Shown piece by piece: positions 40,782-46,987 of a stretch of 64,000 nt of DNA; within the stretch, counting starts at the first letter, position 1; every line of letters starts with the position of its first letter. The position numbers were made by a program, and so were the translations under genes. The notes beneath the pieces were generated by a model. That model worked only from the letters and a program-made list of their open reading frames with translations. It was not told where the DNA came from and ran no database searches. This DNA is from Parvularcula lutaonensis (GTDB lineage Bacteria; Pseudomonadota; Alphaproteobacteria; Caulobacterales; Parvularculaceae), in NCBI RefSeq assembly GCF_014651915.1, contig NZ_BMXU01000002.1, positions 186,001-250,000 of the forward strand, in the 5' to 3' direction.

Positions 40782-41312
40782 TCACTCAGGCTTGTAGTTG
40801 GCGACGCCTTCCTGGATCAGGCGCTCGGCTTCGTCCTTTCCCTTCCACTCGATGACCTTGACCCACTTGTTCGGCTCGAGATCCTTGTAGTGGTCAAAGA
40901 AATGCCAGATGCGCTCGAGCAACGTGGGCTGGACGTCTTCATAGGTTCTGATGTTGTCGTAGAAGCGCGTCAGCTTCGGGTGCGGTGCGGCGAGAATCTT
41001 TTCGTCGAGGCCAGCCTCGTCTTCCATGATCAGGACACCGATCGGACGCGCGCGGAGGACGCAGCCCGGAACCAGCGGACGGTTGCCCAGCACCATGACA
41101 TCGACAGGGTCGCCATCGCCCGACAGCGTGTGCGGCATGAACCCGTAGTTACAGGGGTAGCGCATCGAGGTGTAGAGGAAACGGTCAACGAAGATCGCGC
41201 CGGACGGCTTGTCGAACTCGTACTTGATCGGTTCGTTGCCGAGGGGGACTTCGATAATGACGTTGATGTCTTCGGGCGGATTCTCCCCGGCGGGGATCTC
41301 GGAAATGCGCAT
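40782..41312 (-). CDS. ppa: Inorganic pyrophosphatase (family I)
   Basis: Soluble enzyme that splits pyrophosphate and drives biosynthesis; 176 residues. Typical pieces are IIEVPLGNEPIKYEFDKPSG, YPCNYGFMPHTLSGDGDPVDVMV (the DGDPVD metal site) and YKDLEPNKWVKVIEWKG. The ATG at 41312 has GAGAGG upstream and gives the normal length. A frame to 41420 is too long. Confidence 0.96.
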   Translation of the reverse strand: MRISEIPAGENPPEDINVIIEVPLGNEPIKYEFDKPSGAIFVDRFLYTSMRYPCNYGFMPHTLSGDGDPVDVMVLGNRPLVPGCVLRARPIGVLIMEDEAGLDEKILAAPHPKLTRFYDNIRTYEDVQPTLLERIWHFFDHYKDLEPNKWVKVIEWKGKDEAERLIQEGVANYKPE

Positions 41313-41526
41313 CGGTCGGCCTCTCTTGCCGTGGAATTGGTCTGACGGCGCACCTCTAAGGGCTTTTTGTGCGCCGCAAAAGCCCTTTGCTCGTGATGGT
41401 GAAACGCGAAACGGCTTCATGTCCCATGCGAGCGAAAACCGAGCGTTTGGGGAGGTGCCCGATCAGTATTGGCCTCGGCGCTCCAGTGGCCTAACTGCGC
41501 GGTATTCTCGGAAAGGATCAGTTGGA

Positions 41527-42318
41527 ATGTTTGAAGACCTGCGTGGCCGCAAGGCCGTCATCACTGGCTCCACCTCGGGCATCGGCCTGGCGTTTGCCGA
41601 GGGGCTGGCCGAAATGGGGGTCGACATCACGCTCAACGGCTTCGGCGACAAGGACGAGATCGAGGAGAACCGCGCGCGCATCGCCGGTGAGCATGGCGTC
41701 GATGTCCGCTATGACGGTGCCGACATGACCAAGCCGCAGGAGATCCGGGACCTCATCACCGGTGCGGAAGCGGCCCACGGCCGAATCGACATCCTGATCA
41801 ACAATGCCGGAATCCAGAAGGTCGCGCCGATCGATGAGTATGATGACGACACCTGGGACCGCATCATCGCGATCAATCTGACCTCGAACTATCACACGAT
41901 CAAAGCCGCGCTTCCGGGGATGAAGAAACGCAAATTCGGCCGTATCGTGAACGTTGCGTCTGCCCATGGCCTTATCGCTTCGCCGTTCAAGTCGGCCTAC
42001 AACTCGGCCAAGCATGGCGTCGTCGGACTGACGAAAACCGTCGCCCTCGAGGCAGCCGAATACGGCGTGACGTGCAACGCGATCTGCCCCGGCTTCGTCC
42101 TGACGCCGTTGCTCGAAGCCCAGATGAAGGACAACGCAAAAGCCCGAAACATGAGTGAGGAAGAGGTCAAGGCGAAGCTCCTGAACGACGCCCACGCGAC
42201 CAAGGAATTCATAACCTATGAGAACCTCATCGGGCTTCTCGTTTACCTCTGCTCCAACGCAGGATCCGGCGCGACCGGTTACCCCTACGCCGTCGATGGC
42301 GGATGGACCGCTCACTGA
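41527..42318 (+). CDS. bdhA: 3-hydroxybutyrate dehydrogenase (SDR)
   Basis: NAD-dependent short-chain dehydrogenase that oxidises D-3-hydroxybutyrate to acetoacetate in polyhydroxybutyrate use; 263 residues. The cofactor site is ITGSTSGIGLAFAEGLAEMG, then ILINNAGIQ. The catalytic residues lie in VNVASAHGLIASPFKSAYNSAKHG (Ser, Tyr, Lys). C-terminal QMKDNAKARNMSEEEV and YAVDGGWTAH match BdhA. ATG 41527 has AAGGA upstream. The patatin gene 15 bases downstream is a common partner. Confidence 0.94.
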   Translation: MFEDLRGRKAVITGSTSGIGLAFAEGLAEMGVDITLNGFGDKDEIEENRARIAGEHGVDVRYDGADMTKPQEIRDLITGAEAAHGRIDILINNAGIQKVAPIDEYDDDTWDRIIAINLTSNYHTIKAALPGMKKRKFGRIVNVASAHGLIASPFKSAYNSAKHGVVGLTKTVALEAAEYGVTCNAICPGFVLTPLLEAQMKDNAKARNMSEEEVKAKLLNDAHATKEFITYENLIGLLVYLCSNAGSGATGYPYAVDGGWTAH

Positions 42319-42333
42319 CAATCGAGGGGCTGG

Positions 42334-43365
42334 ATGGCGAAGGCTGCGAAGAAAACTTTGAACCTTGCCCTCCAGGGCGGCGGCGCCCACGGCGCCTTCG
42401 CTTGGGGCGTATGCGACAGGCTTCTTGCTTCCGAGCGCATTCATATCAACGCCATCACAGCCACCTCGGCGGGGGCGATGAACGCGACGACCCTCGCCTA
42501 TGGCATGCATCTGGGCGATGAACAGGGCGCCCGCGACAAGCTCGACGAGTTCTGGGAAGGCGTCTCGAAGCTCCAGAACCCGTTCGAGCTTCCCATGACG
42601 GCGCCCCTGCCTTTCGTGCAGGAGATCAAGGATTTTTGGAAAGACCAGGCGCTCAACCACATTACAGGCGCGTTCTCGCCCTACCAGCTCAACCCGATGA
42701 ACTGGAACCCGCTCAGGGACCTCCTCGCCAGGGTGGTCGATTTCGATCGGCTACATGAATGCAACAAGATCAAGCTTTTTATCAGTGCAACGAACGTCCG
42801 GTCAGGGAAGGTCCGGATCTTCCAAAATGACGAGCTGAGCATCGATGCCGTCATGGCATCGGCATGCCTGCCCCACCTGTTCCAGGCGGTGATGATCGAT
42901 GGCGAGGCTTACTGGGACGGCGGGTATATGGGCAACCCGTCGCTTTGGCCCCTCTTCTATGAAACCGATGTGAGGGACCTGCTGCTCGTTCACATCAATC
43001 CGATCGTGCGGGACGAGGTCCCCACCACCATTCCCGAGATCGAGAACCGGCTCAATGAGATCACCTTCAACGCCAGCCTCATCAAGGAATTGCGGGCGAT
43101 CGCCTTCGTGAAGAAGCTGCTCGACCAAGGCTGGTTGAAAGAAGAGTATCAGGACAAGCTGTCGAACATCCGATATCATGCCATTCGCGCGGATGAGGTC
43201 CTCAAAGACTTCCCCCTACCAACGAAAATGAAGGCCGATATCGGCTTCCTCCGCGAACTGAAGGCCATCGGCCGGGAGTCCGCGGAGGCATGGATCGAGC
43301 AAAACTACGAGAAGCTCGGCAAGACGGATAGTTGCGACCTTCGCCAGGAGTTTCTCGGCACCTGA
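42334..43365 (+). CDS. Patatin-like phospholipase, PHB-associated type
   Basis: Predicted serine acyl hydrolase, 343 residues, complete. The oxyanion loop is LALQGGGAHGAFAWG, the nucleophile Ser45 in ATSAGAMNA, and the Asp195 partner in YWDGGYMGNP. It starts 15 bases after bdhA, an arrangement known in other alphaproteobacteria and suggestive of a role in polyhydroxybutyrate breakdown. That role is inferred; phospholipase activity is equally possible. It is convergent with the tandem gene group at 43368. Confidence 0.9.
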   Translation: MAKAAKKTLNLALQGGGAHGAFAWGVCDRLLASERIHINAITATSAGAMNATTLAYGMHLGDEQGARDKLDEFWEGVSKLQNPFELPMTAPLPFVQEIKDFWKDQALNHITGAFSPYQLNPMNWNPLRDLLARVVDFDRLHECNKIKLFISATNVRSGKVRIFQNDELSIDAVMASACLPHLFQAVMIDGEAYWDGGYMGNPSLWPLFYETDVRDLLLVHINPIVRDEVPTTIPEIENRLNEITFNASLIKELRAIAFVKKLLDQGWLKEEYQDKLSNIRYHAIRADEVLKDFPLPTKMKADIGFLRELKAIGRESAEAWIEQNYEKLGKTDSCDLRQEFLGT

Positions 43366-43367
43366 GA

Positions 43368-43931
43368 TCAGAACGGATCGATCTTCGACAGCTCGCTCCA
43401 TCTCTCCTCGATCACCGCCTGGGAGGCGGGTGGGACGGAGTCCATTTTCTCGCCAAAGGCCTTCACCCGCAGCGTCAAAATTCGCTGCTTCCGCCGCATG
43501 CGGGCATATTCGGCGTCGGTATAGGACATCGCCCGGTCAACCAACGCGTCGAGACCGAACTGATCGCCTTTCGTCACCGCGCTGACCATAAGAATACGGT
43601 CCCCGACCCTGGCGAATTGTCGGGCATCACGGAACCCGGCCGCCCGGACTTCGCTCTCCAAGGCTTCATACGCCTCGGGGTCGCTTCTCTGGAGACGCCA
43701 GACGAGACGCTTGAGCGCCACGACATCTCCGCTGTCGTTCAACCAACGGCCCAGATCCATCGGGCCGTCCACCGGATCGAATCTGACATGGTCGATCTTC
43801 GCGGCCGCGCAACCATATCGCAGCCGCATCGTCGCTTCCGTGAAACGATCTACTTCATCAGGCTCGACCGACTGGACGGCACCAACCGTCATCGGCCAGG
43901 CGGCCGCAGCCACCACCACCCACTTCCACAT
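43368..43931 (-). CDS. Secreted protein of unknown function, tandem paralogue 1
   Basis: I do not recognise a named family. The protein is 187 residues from ATG 43931 (GGGGGTG upstream) with a signal peptide (MWKWVVVAAAAWPMTVGA). The mature part is helical. It carries LKRLVWRLQRSDPEAYEALE, AAGFRDARQFARVGDRILMV and MRRKQRILTLRVKAF. The same motifs occur, in order, in the next gene on the same strand (44120-44689), so the two are close paralogues; a third, more distant copy is at 44882-45445. It ends two bases from the patatin stop. Confidence 0.75.
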   Translation of the reverse strand: MWKWVVVAAAAWPMTVGAVQSVEPDEVDRFTEATMRLRYGCAAAKIDHVRFDPVDGPMDLGRWLNDSGDVVALKRLVWRLQRSDPEAYEALESEVRAAGFRDARQFARVGDRILMVSAVTKGDQFGLDALVDRAMSYTDAEYARMRRKQRILTLRVKAFGEKMDSVPPASQAVIEERWSELSKIDPF

Positions 43932-44119
43932 AGGCACCCCCGCGCCATTCAAGGAAGCCAGACACACAGGGGCATCTCGGCTTCGGCGGTTGCCCTACCC
44001 CTCCTGCGCGACTGCGAAGAACGCACGCCGGTCACCGCACCGAAACCACTACCACAGGTTGCCTTGCGAGTCGAGTCATCTACCCAGGATTGGGGATCCA
44101 GAGGCGAGCGCGTGCGAGG

Positions 44120-44689
44120 TCAGTCGATCTCGATCGTCTGGAGCTTGGACCAGTTGCTGTCGATCAGGGCAGCTTCGCGCGCCGGAAGGGTTCGCCTGAC
44201 TTCGTCGAAAGCCTGCACCCTGCCGAGAAGGATCCGCTGCTTGCGCGGCAATCCCTCGAGCGTTTCCTGCGAGACCGCCATCGCGGCCGAGACGAGCGGC
44301 TCGAGCCCGATCTCCTCGGTCTTCGCCGCCGCACCCACCGTGAGCACGCGGTCTCCGGTCTTGGCGAATTCCCGCGCATCGCGGAAGCCCGCCTTCTTCG
44401 CCTCGTGATCGATGACCGAAAGCGCCTCCTCGTCTTGGCGCTGGAGGCGCCAGATCAGCCGCTGCAAGACAACGACCTCGCCGTATTTGTCGAGCGTCTT
44501 GCCAAAGTCGATCGGATCAACAATCTCGGCGAAATCGATGTGGTCGAGGCGTCGGGCGTTCGGCCCCTCCTGCATGTTCTCCGTCGCAGTGATGAATTGA
44601 TCGATCGCTGTTTGATCGAGCGGACCCGCCGCGAAAGCCATGCCAGGCAGCATGACTGCGGCTGCCCAGATTCTTCCGAGCATCTTCAT
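44120..44689 (-). CDS. Secreted protein of unknown function, tandem paralogue 2
   Basis: Protein of 189 residues with a signal peptide (MKMLGRIWAAAVMLPGMAFA). It begins its mature part TAIDQFITATENMQEG, then LQRLIWRLQRQDEEAL, KAGFRDAREFAKTGDRVLTV and PRKQRILLGRVQAFDE. These segments match paralogue 1 closely. No cysteine or catalytic motif stands out; the protein looks like a small helical periplasmic domain. It is separated by about 190 bases from each neighbour of the trio, which suggests individual promoters. Confidence 0.78.
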   Translation of the reverse strand: MKMLGRIWAAAVMLPGMAFAAGPLDQTAIDQFITATENMQEGPNARRLDHIDFAEIVDPIDFGKTLDKYGEVVVLQRLIWRLQRQDEEALSVIDHEAKKAGFRDAREFAKTGDRVLTVGAAAKTEEIGLEPLVSAAMAVSQETLEGLPRKQRILLGRVQAFDEVRRTLPAREAALIDSNWSKLQTIEID

Positions 44690-44881
44690 TTCCCATACCC
44701 ACCAGGATCAAGCCGCCAAATACAGTACGCGAACTAAAATCAACGCGGCCGAACGTTTTCCGTTTGCCGAACCGGGAAGCAAAAGCAACGTGAACTCGCG
44801 GCCATCTGCGGTCCCGGCACAAATCTCCAAGCTGTTGGGAACCTTATATCTCCAGAGCAGGCCCCCGACCGCGCGGACTTG

Positions 44882-45445
44882 TCAGAGGTCGAGCGCGTCA
44901 AGACGTGGCTTCGCCTCGCGCGCCAAGGCAAGGTCGCTCTCCGACACGGCCTGCAGCGCCTTGCTGAACTTGCCCATGCGCTCGACCATCGGGCGCATAT
45001 TGGCCGGCACGAAGGCAAGCTGTTCGGGCGGCATGTTCGCCACCTGCTCCATCTCGGCAAGGTCCGCCTTGGACACCTCGAGCCTTGCAATTGCAAGGAT
45101 CAGCTGGTCGCCGACACTGCCGAACTCATCGAGGCTGGAGAAGCCGGAGCTCCGCGCGATCTCACGCATGTCCTTGCCAACACCCGGCTCGTCCTTCACC
45201 CGGTTCATCAGCGAACGCATGATCTGCAGGGAGCCATCCTCGGCGAACATCATGTCGAAGGCTTCGGTCATGTCCTGGTCGTCGATATCGAAATCGATAT
45301 CCACGTCGGGATACTTCTCTTCCAGCTCCTGCATCTTCTCTGCGGCGGCGATGAAGTGATCGACCTTCTTCTTCGTCAGCGGTTCGGCACCCAGCGCGGT
45401 GCCGGGCAGCACCAGCAGCAGCACCATGACCAATCGTTTGAGCAT
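44882..45445 (-). CDS. Secreted protein of unknown function, tandem paralogue 3 (diverged)
   Basis: Protein of 187 residues with signal peptide MLKRLVMVLLLVLPGTALG. The opening KKVDHFIAAAEKMQELEEKY parallels IDQFITATENMQEG of paralogue 2, and SSGFSSLDEFGSVGDQLILA parallels AGFRDAREFAKTGDRVL. An acidic insert (DVDIDFDIDDQDMTEAF) sets it apart. It starts about 15 bases after the SRAP-family gene on the same strand, so it may be translated from that transcript. Confidence 0.75.
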   Translation of the reverse strand: MLKRLVMVLLLVLPGTALGAEPLTKKKVDHFIAAAEKMQELEEKYPDVDIDFDIDDQDMTEAFDMMFAEDGSLQIMRSLMNRVKDEPGVGKDMREIARSSGFSSLDEFGSVGDQLILAIARLEVSKADLAEMEQVANMPPEQLAFVPANMRPMVERMGKFSKALQAVSESDLALAREAKPRLDALDL

Positions 45446-45460
45446 CTCGGAACCCTCCTC

Positions 45461-46183
45461 TCATAATAGCCGGGTCCGAACGGGCTCCGGCGCTTTTTCC
45501 GAGCGAAGCGCGCCGCCTTCGATCGGGCGAGTCAGCGCTTCGTCGTCAGGTTTCCAGCTTCCTACGCGGCGGTCCACCGGCCAGTACACAAACTCCGGTG
45601 GCTTCTCGTTCACAATTGCCCACGAGGCACTGTCGTCCAGCTCATCCACGGCGAGCCAGCCCTCATAATCCTCGGGCCGCACGACCACCGGCGTCCGGCT
45701 GTGAATCTGGCGCACATCGCCCTCCGATTCGCGGGTCAGGAAAGCCGCGCTCCTGAGTTCCGAGCCGTCGGGCCCTAGCCAGTCCTCGTAGAGCCCCGCC
45801 AGAGCAAAGAGCGGCATGTCCGGGCCCAGGCTAATGAAATAGGGCTGCTTCACCCCGTCCTCGGTCCGCCATTCGTAGAAGCCGTTGAGGGGGAAGAGGC
45901 AATGCCTGCGCCTCCAGGCATGCCGGAACATCGGCTTCTCATGCGCCGTTTCGGAGCGGATGTTGACGATGGGCTTTTTCAGCCACTTTCCCTCCTTGTC
46001 CCAGCTCGGCACGAAGCCCCAGCGGACGATCTCGTACTTGCGCTTGCCGCCTTCATGCAGGATCACCGAGACAGGCTGGCTCGGCGCAATGTTGTAGCGG
46101 GCCGGGAAGTTGTCGGTGATGGGCACGTCGAAATGCCTGCCAATCTCCGCCGGTGTATCTTTCAAGGCGAAACGGGCGTTCAT
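45461..46183 (-). CDS. SRAP-domain protein (YedK/HMCES family) with Cys2 replaced by Asn
   Basis: The family shields abasic sites in single-stranded DNA by covalent attachment through Cys2, exposed after Met removal. This 240-residue protein has the whole SRAP fold: NIAPSQPVSV, RWGFVPSWDK, Asn74 in PIVNIRSETA, Glu104 in CLFPLNGFYEW, and His161 in QIHSRTPVVV. These match the catalytic set of E. coli YedK (Asn75, Glu105, His160). The N-terminus, however, reads MNARFAL, not MCGRFAL, so the cross-linking Cys is Asn. AGGGGAG five bases upstream supports the start. The normal reaction should be impossible; a non-covalent or structural role is likely. Confidence 0.9.
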   Translation of the reverse strand: MNARFALKDTPAEIGRHFDVPITDNFPARYNIAPSQPVSVILHEGGKRKYEIVRWGFVPSWDKEGKWLKKPIVNIRSETAHEKPMFRHAWRRRHCLFPLNGFYEWRTEDGVKQPYFISLGPDMPLFALAGLYEDWLGPDGSELRSAAFLTRESEGDVRQIHSRTPVVVRPEDYEGWLAVDELDDSASWAIVNEKPPEFVYWPVDRRVGSWKPDDEALTRPIEGGALRSEKAPEPVRTRLL

Positions 46184-46613
46184 GGAGGCTCCCCTGACCG
46201 ATCAAAGACCCATCGTTGCCGTCGGCGGCGTCGTTCTCAAGGGCGATCAGGTCCTTCTCATCCAGCGCGGCCGCCCGCCCTTGCGCAAGCACTGGTCCAT
46301 TCCCGGCGGCAAGATCGAATATGGCGAGGACATCAGGACGGCCCTTGTCCGCGAGATCGAGGAAGAGACCGGCGTCACCTGCGAACCGATCGGGTTGATC
46401 GGTGTCTTCGAAGCCCTGCCCAAGCGCGAGGGCGACCGCCACTACGTCATGGTCGACTATGCCTGCCGCTACATCTCCGGCGAGGTGACCCCCGGCGACG
46501 ATGCGATGGATGCCGAATGGCTCTCGCTCCCTGAAGCTTTGTCCAGAGTGGCGTGGGACGAGACCCGCCGGGCTGTGCAAGGGGCCCTGAAATTCGCTAA
46601 AGAGGCGAAGTGA
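46182..46613 (+). CDS. Nudix hydrolase (ADP-ribose/NTP pyrophosphatase type)
   Basis: Mg-dependent hydrolase of nucleoside diphosphate derivatives; 143 residues. The Nudix box is GGKIEYGEDIRTALVREIEE followed by ETG, complete with the REIEEETG metal ligands. Opening VAVGGVVLKGDQVLLIQRG is typical. ATG 46182 overlaps the divergent SRAP start codon (CATG), so the two share a tiny promoter space; the in-frame start could instead be a little upstream. Its stop overlaps the next start (GTGA), indicating coupling with the TIGR02301 gene. The substrate is unknown. Confidence 0.88.
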   Translation: MEAPLTDQRPIVAVGGVVLKGDQVLLIQRGRPPLRKHWSIPGGKIEYGEDIRTALVREIEEETGVTCEPIGLIGVFEALPKREGDRHYVMVDYACRYISGEVTPGDDAMDAEWLSLPEALSRVAWDETRRAVQGALKFAKEAK

Positions 46614-46987
46614 TAGCCCTCCTCGCAGCCCTCGCCCTTGCCCAAGCCGAACCGATCGCGCCTGAGGCCAAGGACGTGTTCGAACAGCGCCAGGGCGACC
46701 TGATCGCTCTTGCGGGCAAACTCGGCGGCCTCCACCGGCTCAGCCAAGTCTGCGCAAGCTATGGGAATATTGCGGTTTTCCGGGACAGGATGAAGGAGCT
46801 CATCGACGGCGAGCGTCCGCCCCGTGACACCCGTGAGGCCATGATCGCGCAGTTCAATGCCAGCTACCGCACCATGAGCGGCGCGCATTTCACCTGCAGC
46901 CGCAGGGCCGAAACCGATTTCCGGCGCGAGGCATCGGACGCACTCCGAATCTCCGAGCGGCTGTCTGCATCCCTGCAGCGAGGCTGA
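46610..46987 (+). CDS. TIGR02301-family protein
   Basis: Exported protein of 125 residues, GTG start at 46610 overlapping the Nudix stop. It has a short hydrophobic leader (MIALLAALALAQA), then GDLIALAGKLGGLHRLSQVC, RDRMKELIDGERPP and AQFNASYRTM with a second Cys in HFTCSRRAE. The pattern, two conserved cysteines and an FN.SYR segment, fits TIGR02301, a family of unknown function that I recall next to Nudix genes in alphaproteobacteria. A disulphide in the periplasm is likely. Confidence 0.82.
   Translation: MIALLAALALAQAEPIAPEAKDVFEQRQGDLIALAGKLGGLHRLSQVCASYGNIAVFRDRMKELIDGERPPRDTREAMIAQFNASYRTMSGAHFTCSRRAETDFRREASDALRISERLSASLQRG

Follow-up and report, generated by a model that had tools for sequence, protein, structure and literature searches.

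Tandem expansion of a putatively exported, predicted all-helical protein family with methionine-rich and methionine-poor copies in Parvularcula lutaonensis

Three short genes with no recognised domain lie in a row in the genome of Parvularcula lutaonensis, and the locus raises the question of whether they form one family, how the copies arose and what their products might do. The genes are part of a 64,000-nucleotide stretch of contig NZ_BMXU01000002.1 that we analysed as a whole (hereafter, the window). An initial annotation made from the sequence had described them as three tandem, diverged, secreted paralogues of an unrecognised family.

The three-gene block and its gene calls

The three minus-strand open reading frames were found in a row at the annotated positions. 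Read along the minus strand, the order is the SRAP gene, copy 3, copy 2 and copy 1, followed by a convergent patatin-like gene:

45461-46183, minus strand: SRAP-domain gene; starts MNARF, Cys2 absent; co-directional with copy 3 and 15 bp upstream of it
44882-45445, minus strand: copy 3, 187 aa; ancestral type, 8.0% methionine in the last 150 residues, cysteine-free, predicted all-helical
44690-44881, minus strand: spacer between copies 3 and 2, 192 bp; terminator scan empty
44120-44689, minus strand: copy 2, 189 aa; derived, methionine-poor type, 0.7% methionine in the last 150 residues
43932-44119, minus strand: spacer between copies 2 and 1, 188 bp; terminator scan empty
43368-43931, minus strand: copy 1, 187 aa when started at the ATG at 43931; derived, methionine-poor type, one cysteine
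42334-43365, plus strand: patatin-like phospholipase gene; convergent, with 2 bp between its end and that of copy 1; boundary of the block

The longest open reading frame of copy 1 begins at a GTG at 43967, 12 residues ahead of the ATG at 43931 (codon 13). The ATG opens a normal-looking signal sequence and is the more likely start. The third-position GC content of all three copies (0.74-0.83) resembles that of their neighbours. A scan of the block detected no intrinsic terminator-like site in either spacer, and no strong promoter or terminator pattern was found within the block. Inspected by eye, each copy has a signal peptide with a basic start, a hydrophobic stretch and a small-residue cleavage site. 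None of the three signal peptides has a lipobox cysteine, and about 167 residues follow the cleavage site (by eye), close to the 165 or so mature residues first proposed. On this reading of the sequence all three proteins would be exported, and the family probably resides in the periplasm.

The three genes are diverged paralogues

We compared the mature parts of the proteins by local alignment. The scores were 348 for copies 1 and 2, 103 for copies 2 and 3 and 73 for copies 1 and 3, against maxima of 67, 62 and 55 in 1000 shuffles, and the observed score was reached by 0 of 1000 shuffles in each of the three pairs. The likeness thus exceeds what signal peptides and composition would give, and the proposal of tandem duplication with divergence is confirmed: the three genes are true, diverged paralogues. 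A search of the genome with copy 2 retrieved copy 1 (41% identity, E 5.9e-40) and copy 3 (26% identity, E 2.0e-9) and no further family member. Copies 1 and 2 align over their full length and are sisters in the tree (support 100/100), in agreement with their description as close.

The three-way alignment contains 23 invariant columns. Two of the motifs named in the initial annotation stand, an opening [IV]DxFIxAxExMQE in copies 2 and 3 and RLxWRLQR in copies 1 and 2. The third, a core GFxxxxEFxxxGDxxL common to all copies, is looser than claimed and reads GFxxxx[EQ]FxxxGDxx[LI], with Q in copy 1 and a final I in copy 3. The "acidic insert" attributed to copy 3 is not an insert, because relatives have an acidic linker much like it, and the derived copies are 1 and 2; the linker is ancestral.

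The family is absent from the searched domain libraries and sparse in the phylum

Searches of Pfam, NCBIfam, PHROGs, PADLOC and PDB sequences found no relative of the family, which bears out its description as unrecognised and without a known domain. It has no name in the databases searched. Weak and scattered matches (VHL_C 0.02, UBM 0.0048, SATase_N 0.0013 and similar), each in one to four members, were taken as chance. At E ≤ 0.01 none of the three copies matched a PADLOC anti-phage defence model (0 families), no plasmid match was found, and three scans of viral contigs yielded no relative. The family was also not found in the accessible parts of papers on Parvularcula and methionine-rich proteins, periplasmic methionine-rich proteins, LTXXQ/Spy and periplasmic methionine repair, a set that includes few subscription journals.

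Using copy 3 as the query, we detected matches in all 10 genomes of the genus; copy 2 matched four of the 10. Profile searches were positive in 41 of 62 Parvularculaceae genomes, in 8 of 289 genomes of the class (Alphaproteobacteria) and in 7 of 299 genomes of the phylum, the last two being evenly drawn samples. A broader profile was positive in 18 of 397 phylum genomes, of which nine were accepted (including the genome studied here; E below 1e-17). The other nine were partial matches (E 4e-6 to 9e-4), mostly to the C-terminal half and several in open reading frames of about 1000 aa; these are likely chance and were not counted as family members. Within the order of genome G573, which belongs to another class, probably Gammaproteobacteria, 19 of 145 genomes were positive, 14 with E below 1e-24. 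The family is therefore widespread though sparse in the phylum and reaches several classes.

All three copies were recovered over their full length by the profiles A2, A3 and A7, with E from 1e-69 to 3e-11. A2 and A3 contain copies themselves; A7, which contains copy 3 and neither copy 2 nor copy 1, finds copy 2 at 1.7e-13 and copy 1 at 3.3e-11. In the core of the members, GF precedes F/W and D, and the N-terminus bears an export signal (by eye). An unnamed Parvularculaceae protein of Marinicaulis flavus (L103) is a member by full-length profile match. Relatives of this type share the GF..W/F...GD core with the copies described here, but they are single-copy, carry Trp in place of Phe in the core motif and have neighbours that resemble rlmN, arfB or argG (by eye) rather than SRAP and patatin-like genes. 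A putatively exported family that occurs in several classes of one phylum and is absent from the searched libraries can now be recognised by profile. Another genus of the class (G087, G197, G278) also carries two family genes in tandem, at L091:7047-7676 and L091:7777-8430, both on the minus strand.

Duplication history

We compared gene order across the 10 genomes of the genus. The patatin-SRAP block holds three copies here and one, two and two copies in G004, G005 and G007, and the remaining six genomes have one family copy located elsewhere. The methionine-rich type always adjoins the SRAP gene, with gaps of 15, 12, 3 and 15 bp in G000 (the genome studied here), G004, G005 and G007, and a methionine-poor copy adjoins the patatin-like gene in both two-copy genomes (G005 and G007). 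In the tree, copies 1 and 2 share a long branch (2.66 changes per column) and group with the second copies of G007 (support 85/70) and, weakly, of G005 (61/21), while copy 3 is placed among the SRAP-side copies. Copy 3 is of the ancestral type, and copies 1 and 2 arose by later duplication.

Because of this copy order and tree, we favour one older duplication and then a second in this genome. The starting point would be an ancestral methionine-rich gene of the copy 3 type, downstream of the SRAP gene. Its duplication, which probably predates the split of the present species, would have produced the methionine-poor copy adjoining the patatin-like gene. The methionine-poor copy would then have duplicated again in the genome studied here to give copies 2 and 1. 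Taking homology, gene order and the tree together, we hold a lineage-specific tandem expansion with this two-step history to be highly probable; independent duplications are possible given the weak nodes.

The block had been noted for its place beside a lipid hydrolase and a DNA-damage-type protein. Both genes do adjoin it, but neither explains its function, because the patatin-like gene is convergent, the SRAP gene is tightly linked in just four of the 10 genus genomes, and unrelated genes lie beside the family in other genomes. We found no neighbour gene that recurs beside family members across lineages.

Predicted fold

AlphaFold2 (16 sequences) gave models consisting essentially of helices alone for copy 3 (mean pLDDT 85.0, pTM 0.78; about nine helices) and for the Parvularculaceae relative L097 (mean pLDDT 86.3, pTM 0.79). 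The family is thus confidently predicted to be a small, single-domain, all-helical protein. A Foldseek search of the two models against the PDB returned no chain at E ≤ 0.001 (best E 0.36), an absence that does not amount to a new fold. The best VIA-align matches were bestrophin (Z 4.8, 101 aligned, rmsd 3.7) and myoglobin (Z 3.3, 89 aligned, rmsd 3.8); both lie below the helical noise level of the tool and were rejected as fold likenesses. No Spy or CpxP chain was among the fold-search matches listed.

Methionine content separates the copies

The 45 genes of the window have a mean methionine content of 2.42% (SD 1.07), and copy 3 is the highest with 7.0% over its whole length. For the last 150 residues, the content is 8.0% in copy 3, 0.7% in copy 2 and 3.3% in copy 1. 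Across the family, this region holds 6% methionine or more in 38 of 51 distinct sequences (41 of 55 rows). L139 and the weak matches L140-L144 (from the order of G573) were left out of these counts and of the spacing, column and cysteine analyses below, so that 12 of 13 loci in the set with L139 were used. The second copies of G007 and G005 have 0.7% and 1.3% methionine, compared with 11.3% and 10.0% in their SRAP-side partners. The tandem pair of L091 (G278) differs in the like direction and less strongly (11.3% versus 6.0%). Methionine has been largely lost from copies 1 and 2 and from the second copies of two relatives. Methionine richness is not essential to the family, because 13 of the 51 distinct sequences fall below 6% and some of these, namely L095 (0%), L117 (2.0%), L094 (2.7%) and L138 (2.7%), are low in methionine though not known as second copies.

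Methionine pairs in the last 95 residues are enriched at spacings of 1, 3, 4, 7 and 8 and depleted at 2 (at spacing 4, 114 pairs versus 39.8 in shuffles), with z-scores that are inflated by the relatedness of the sequences. Such helical spacing would also be expected from any amphipathic helix with methionine as a core residue. The alternatives in methionine columns are mostly L, I or V, with polar residues at some. With the four methionine-poor second copies set aside, 0 of 47 sequences contain a cysteine among their last 160 residues, and histidine in the same region averages 2.1.

A tentative client-binding role and its alternatives

The methionine pattern suggests that the family may act on proteins or oxidants beyond the inner membrane. 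The chaperone Spy is all-helical. According to the accessible part of one report, mature Spy contains 11 methionines, and its chaperone activity depends on the core ones, which MsrPQ repairs (PMC12503329). By analogy, the methionine-lined faces of the C-terminal helices may form a flexible, oxidisable, non-polar surface; like Spy, the protein would use it to bind periplasmic clients, either proteins or peptides. The methionine-poor extra copies would then be paralogues that either bind another client or are insensitive to oxidation. Like the family studied here, the Spy/CpxP (LTXXQ) proteins are small, exported, helical and methionine-rich. However, the family, with its 167 or so mature residues and about nine helices, does not match their LTXXQ domain: in Pfam searches no LTXXQ match appeared for the three copies and 14 members at a limit of E 1, or for 19 members at a limit of E 0.1, and neither the sequence searches nor the fold searches of the two models linked the family to Spy/CpxP or to any chaperone. 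We do not claim membership of Spy/CpxP because the LTXXQ match is absent. Taken as a whole, the combination of a tandem expansion of an exported helical family with a Spy-like, client-binding periplasmic role is a tentative proposal that is more apt to prove wrong than right.

We consider it possible, if rather doubtful, that the family instead has an accessory role in the envelope, structural or ligand-binding, for example as a transporter adaptor, and that its methionine content is incidental. TonB-domain proteins are neighbours at L057 and L059, a DctM TRAP component is a neighbour at L088, and neighbours in other lineages look by eye like more TRAP genes and a LivK-like binding protein; however, none of these recurs across lineages, and no transporter gene adjoins the copies in their own block.

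Another alternative is a sacrificial sink that would scavenge periplasmic hypochlorite or peroxide and be re-reduced by a periplasmic Msr, as has been proposed for MrpX/BcrX. In the part of the report available to us, BcrX is a peptide of MXKDX repeats whose gene shares an operon with a methionine sulfoxide reductase system (PMC8315932), and this precedent fits copies that are methionine-rich, cysteine-free and, by eye, exported. An MsrB with a Tat- or lipoprotein-like N-terminus (by eye) is encoded in all 10 genus genomes (L158-L167), where MsrP is absent or below the cut-off. However, MsrP passes its curated cut-off in none of the 62 genomes of the family Parvularculaceae and has no match whatever in G000. 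Although MrpX/BcrX are likewise methionine-rich and thought to be exported, they are peptides with an msrQP operon, whereas the family here is a predicted folded domain in which an MXKDX-like repeat is absent (by eye). The methionines lie in predicted helices, at places where relatives often carry L, I or V, and most are gone from two of the three copies. These points make a sink unlikely.

It is more improbable still that copies 1 and 2 have no function and are duplicates in decay. Their long shared branch and loss of methionine would fit decay, but their frames are open with coding-type third-position GC (0.74 and 0.80), both retain GF, F and GD in the core, and the two still align over their full length. 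A Cu(I)/Ag(I)-binding periplasmic buffer acting through methionine thioethers, which methionine clusters in an exported protein and the methionine-rich copper proteins described in the accessible literature might suggest, has the least to recommend it, given the absence of cysteine, the few histidines, the lack of a recognised copper gene alongside and the loss of the would-be ligands from copies 1 and 2.

Returning to client binding, we regard as a long shot its strongest form, in which the family would be a new class of methionine-faced helical periplasmic chaperone found in several classes of one phylum, with an oxidisable copy 3 type and oxidation-proof copies 1 and 2. If true, these copies would offer a built-in comparison of the part that methionine plays in a client-binding surface. 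Methionine-rich and methionine-poor paralogues in one genome permit a direct test of client binding versus oxidant sensing.

Observations on the flanking genes

The adjoining SRAP protein (YedK/HMCES-like; window 45461-46183, minus strand) starts with MNARF, so that the "invariant" catalytic Cys2 is replaced. Nine of the 11 SRAP loci in the genus are of this type (L147-L155, in nine of the 10 genomes); all nine lack Cys2 and start with MNAR, MNTR, LNAR or VTAR. The other two, of a different type, start with MCNRY and MCNLY and retain the cysteine. Outside the genus, more than 30 matches were present in the family; of 30 such SRAP loci examined, 29 start with MCGR, and the start of the thirtieth (L192) was unreadable. 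Of 41 SRAP loci scanned in all, 40 gave a SRAP match. By our own reading of the alignment, the nine Cys2-less proteins keep the active-site Asn in eight cases, Glu in eight and His in seven. In the accessible parts of two reports Cys2 is termed invariant or absolutely conserved, and the DNA-protein cross-link is said to require it (PMC3765255, PMC9436759); the second describes a YedK C2A mutant with lyase activity that forms no cross-link (PMC9436759). No mention of natural Cys2-less SRAPs was found in those portions of the SRAP literature that were available. Judged from the sequences, the genus appears to hold a natural clade of Cys2-less SRAPs. A changed SRAP activity is testable, because YedK C2A shows lyase activity instead of the cross-link.

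Further along the plus strand (46610-46987 of the window), downstream of a Nudix-like gene (named by eye), lies a gene for a TIGR02301/DUF2385 protein, whose function is not known; its synteny is held in G004, G005 and G007. On the other side of the block (41209-43365, plus strand), the patatin-like gene lies a short way behind a 3-hydroxybutyrate dehydrogenase gene (PHB_DH, over the cut-off). This pair is also kept in G004 and G005 and may hint at a link to polyhydroxybutyrate use.
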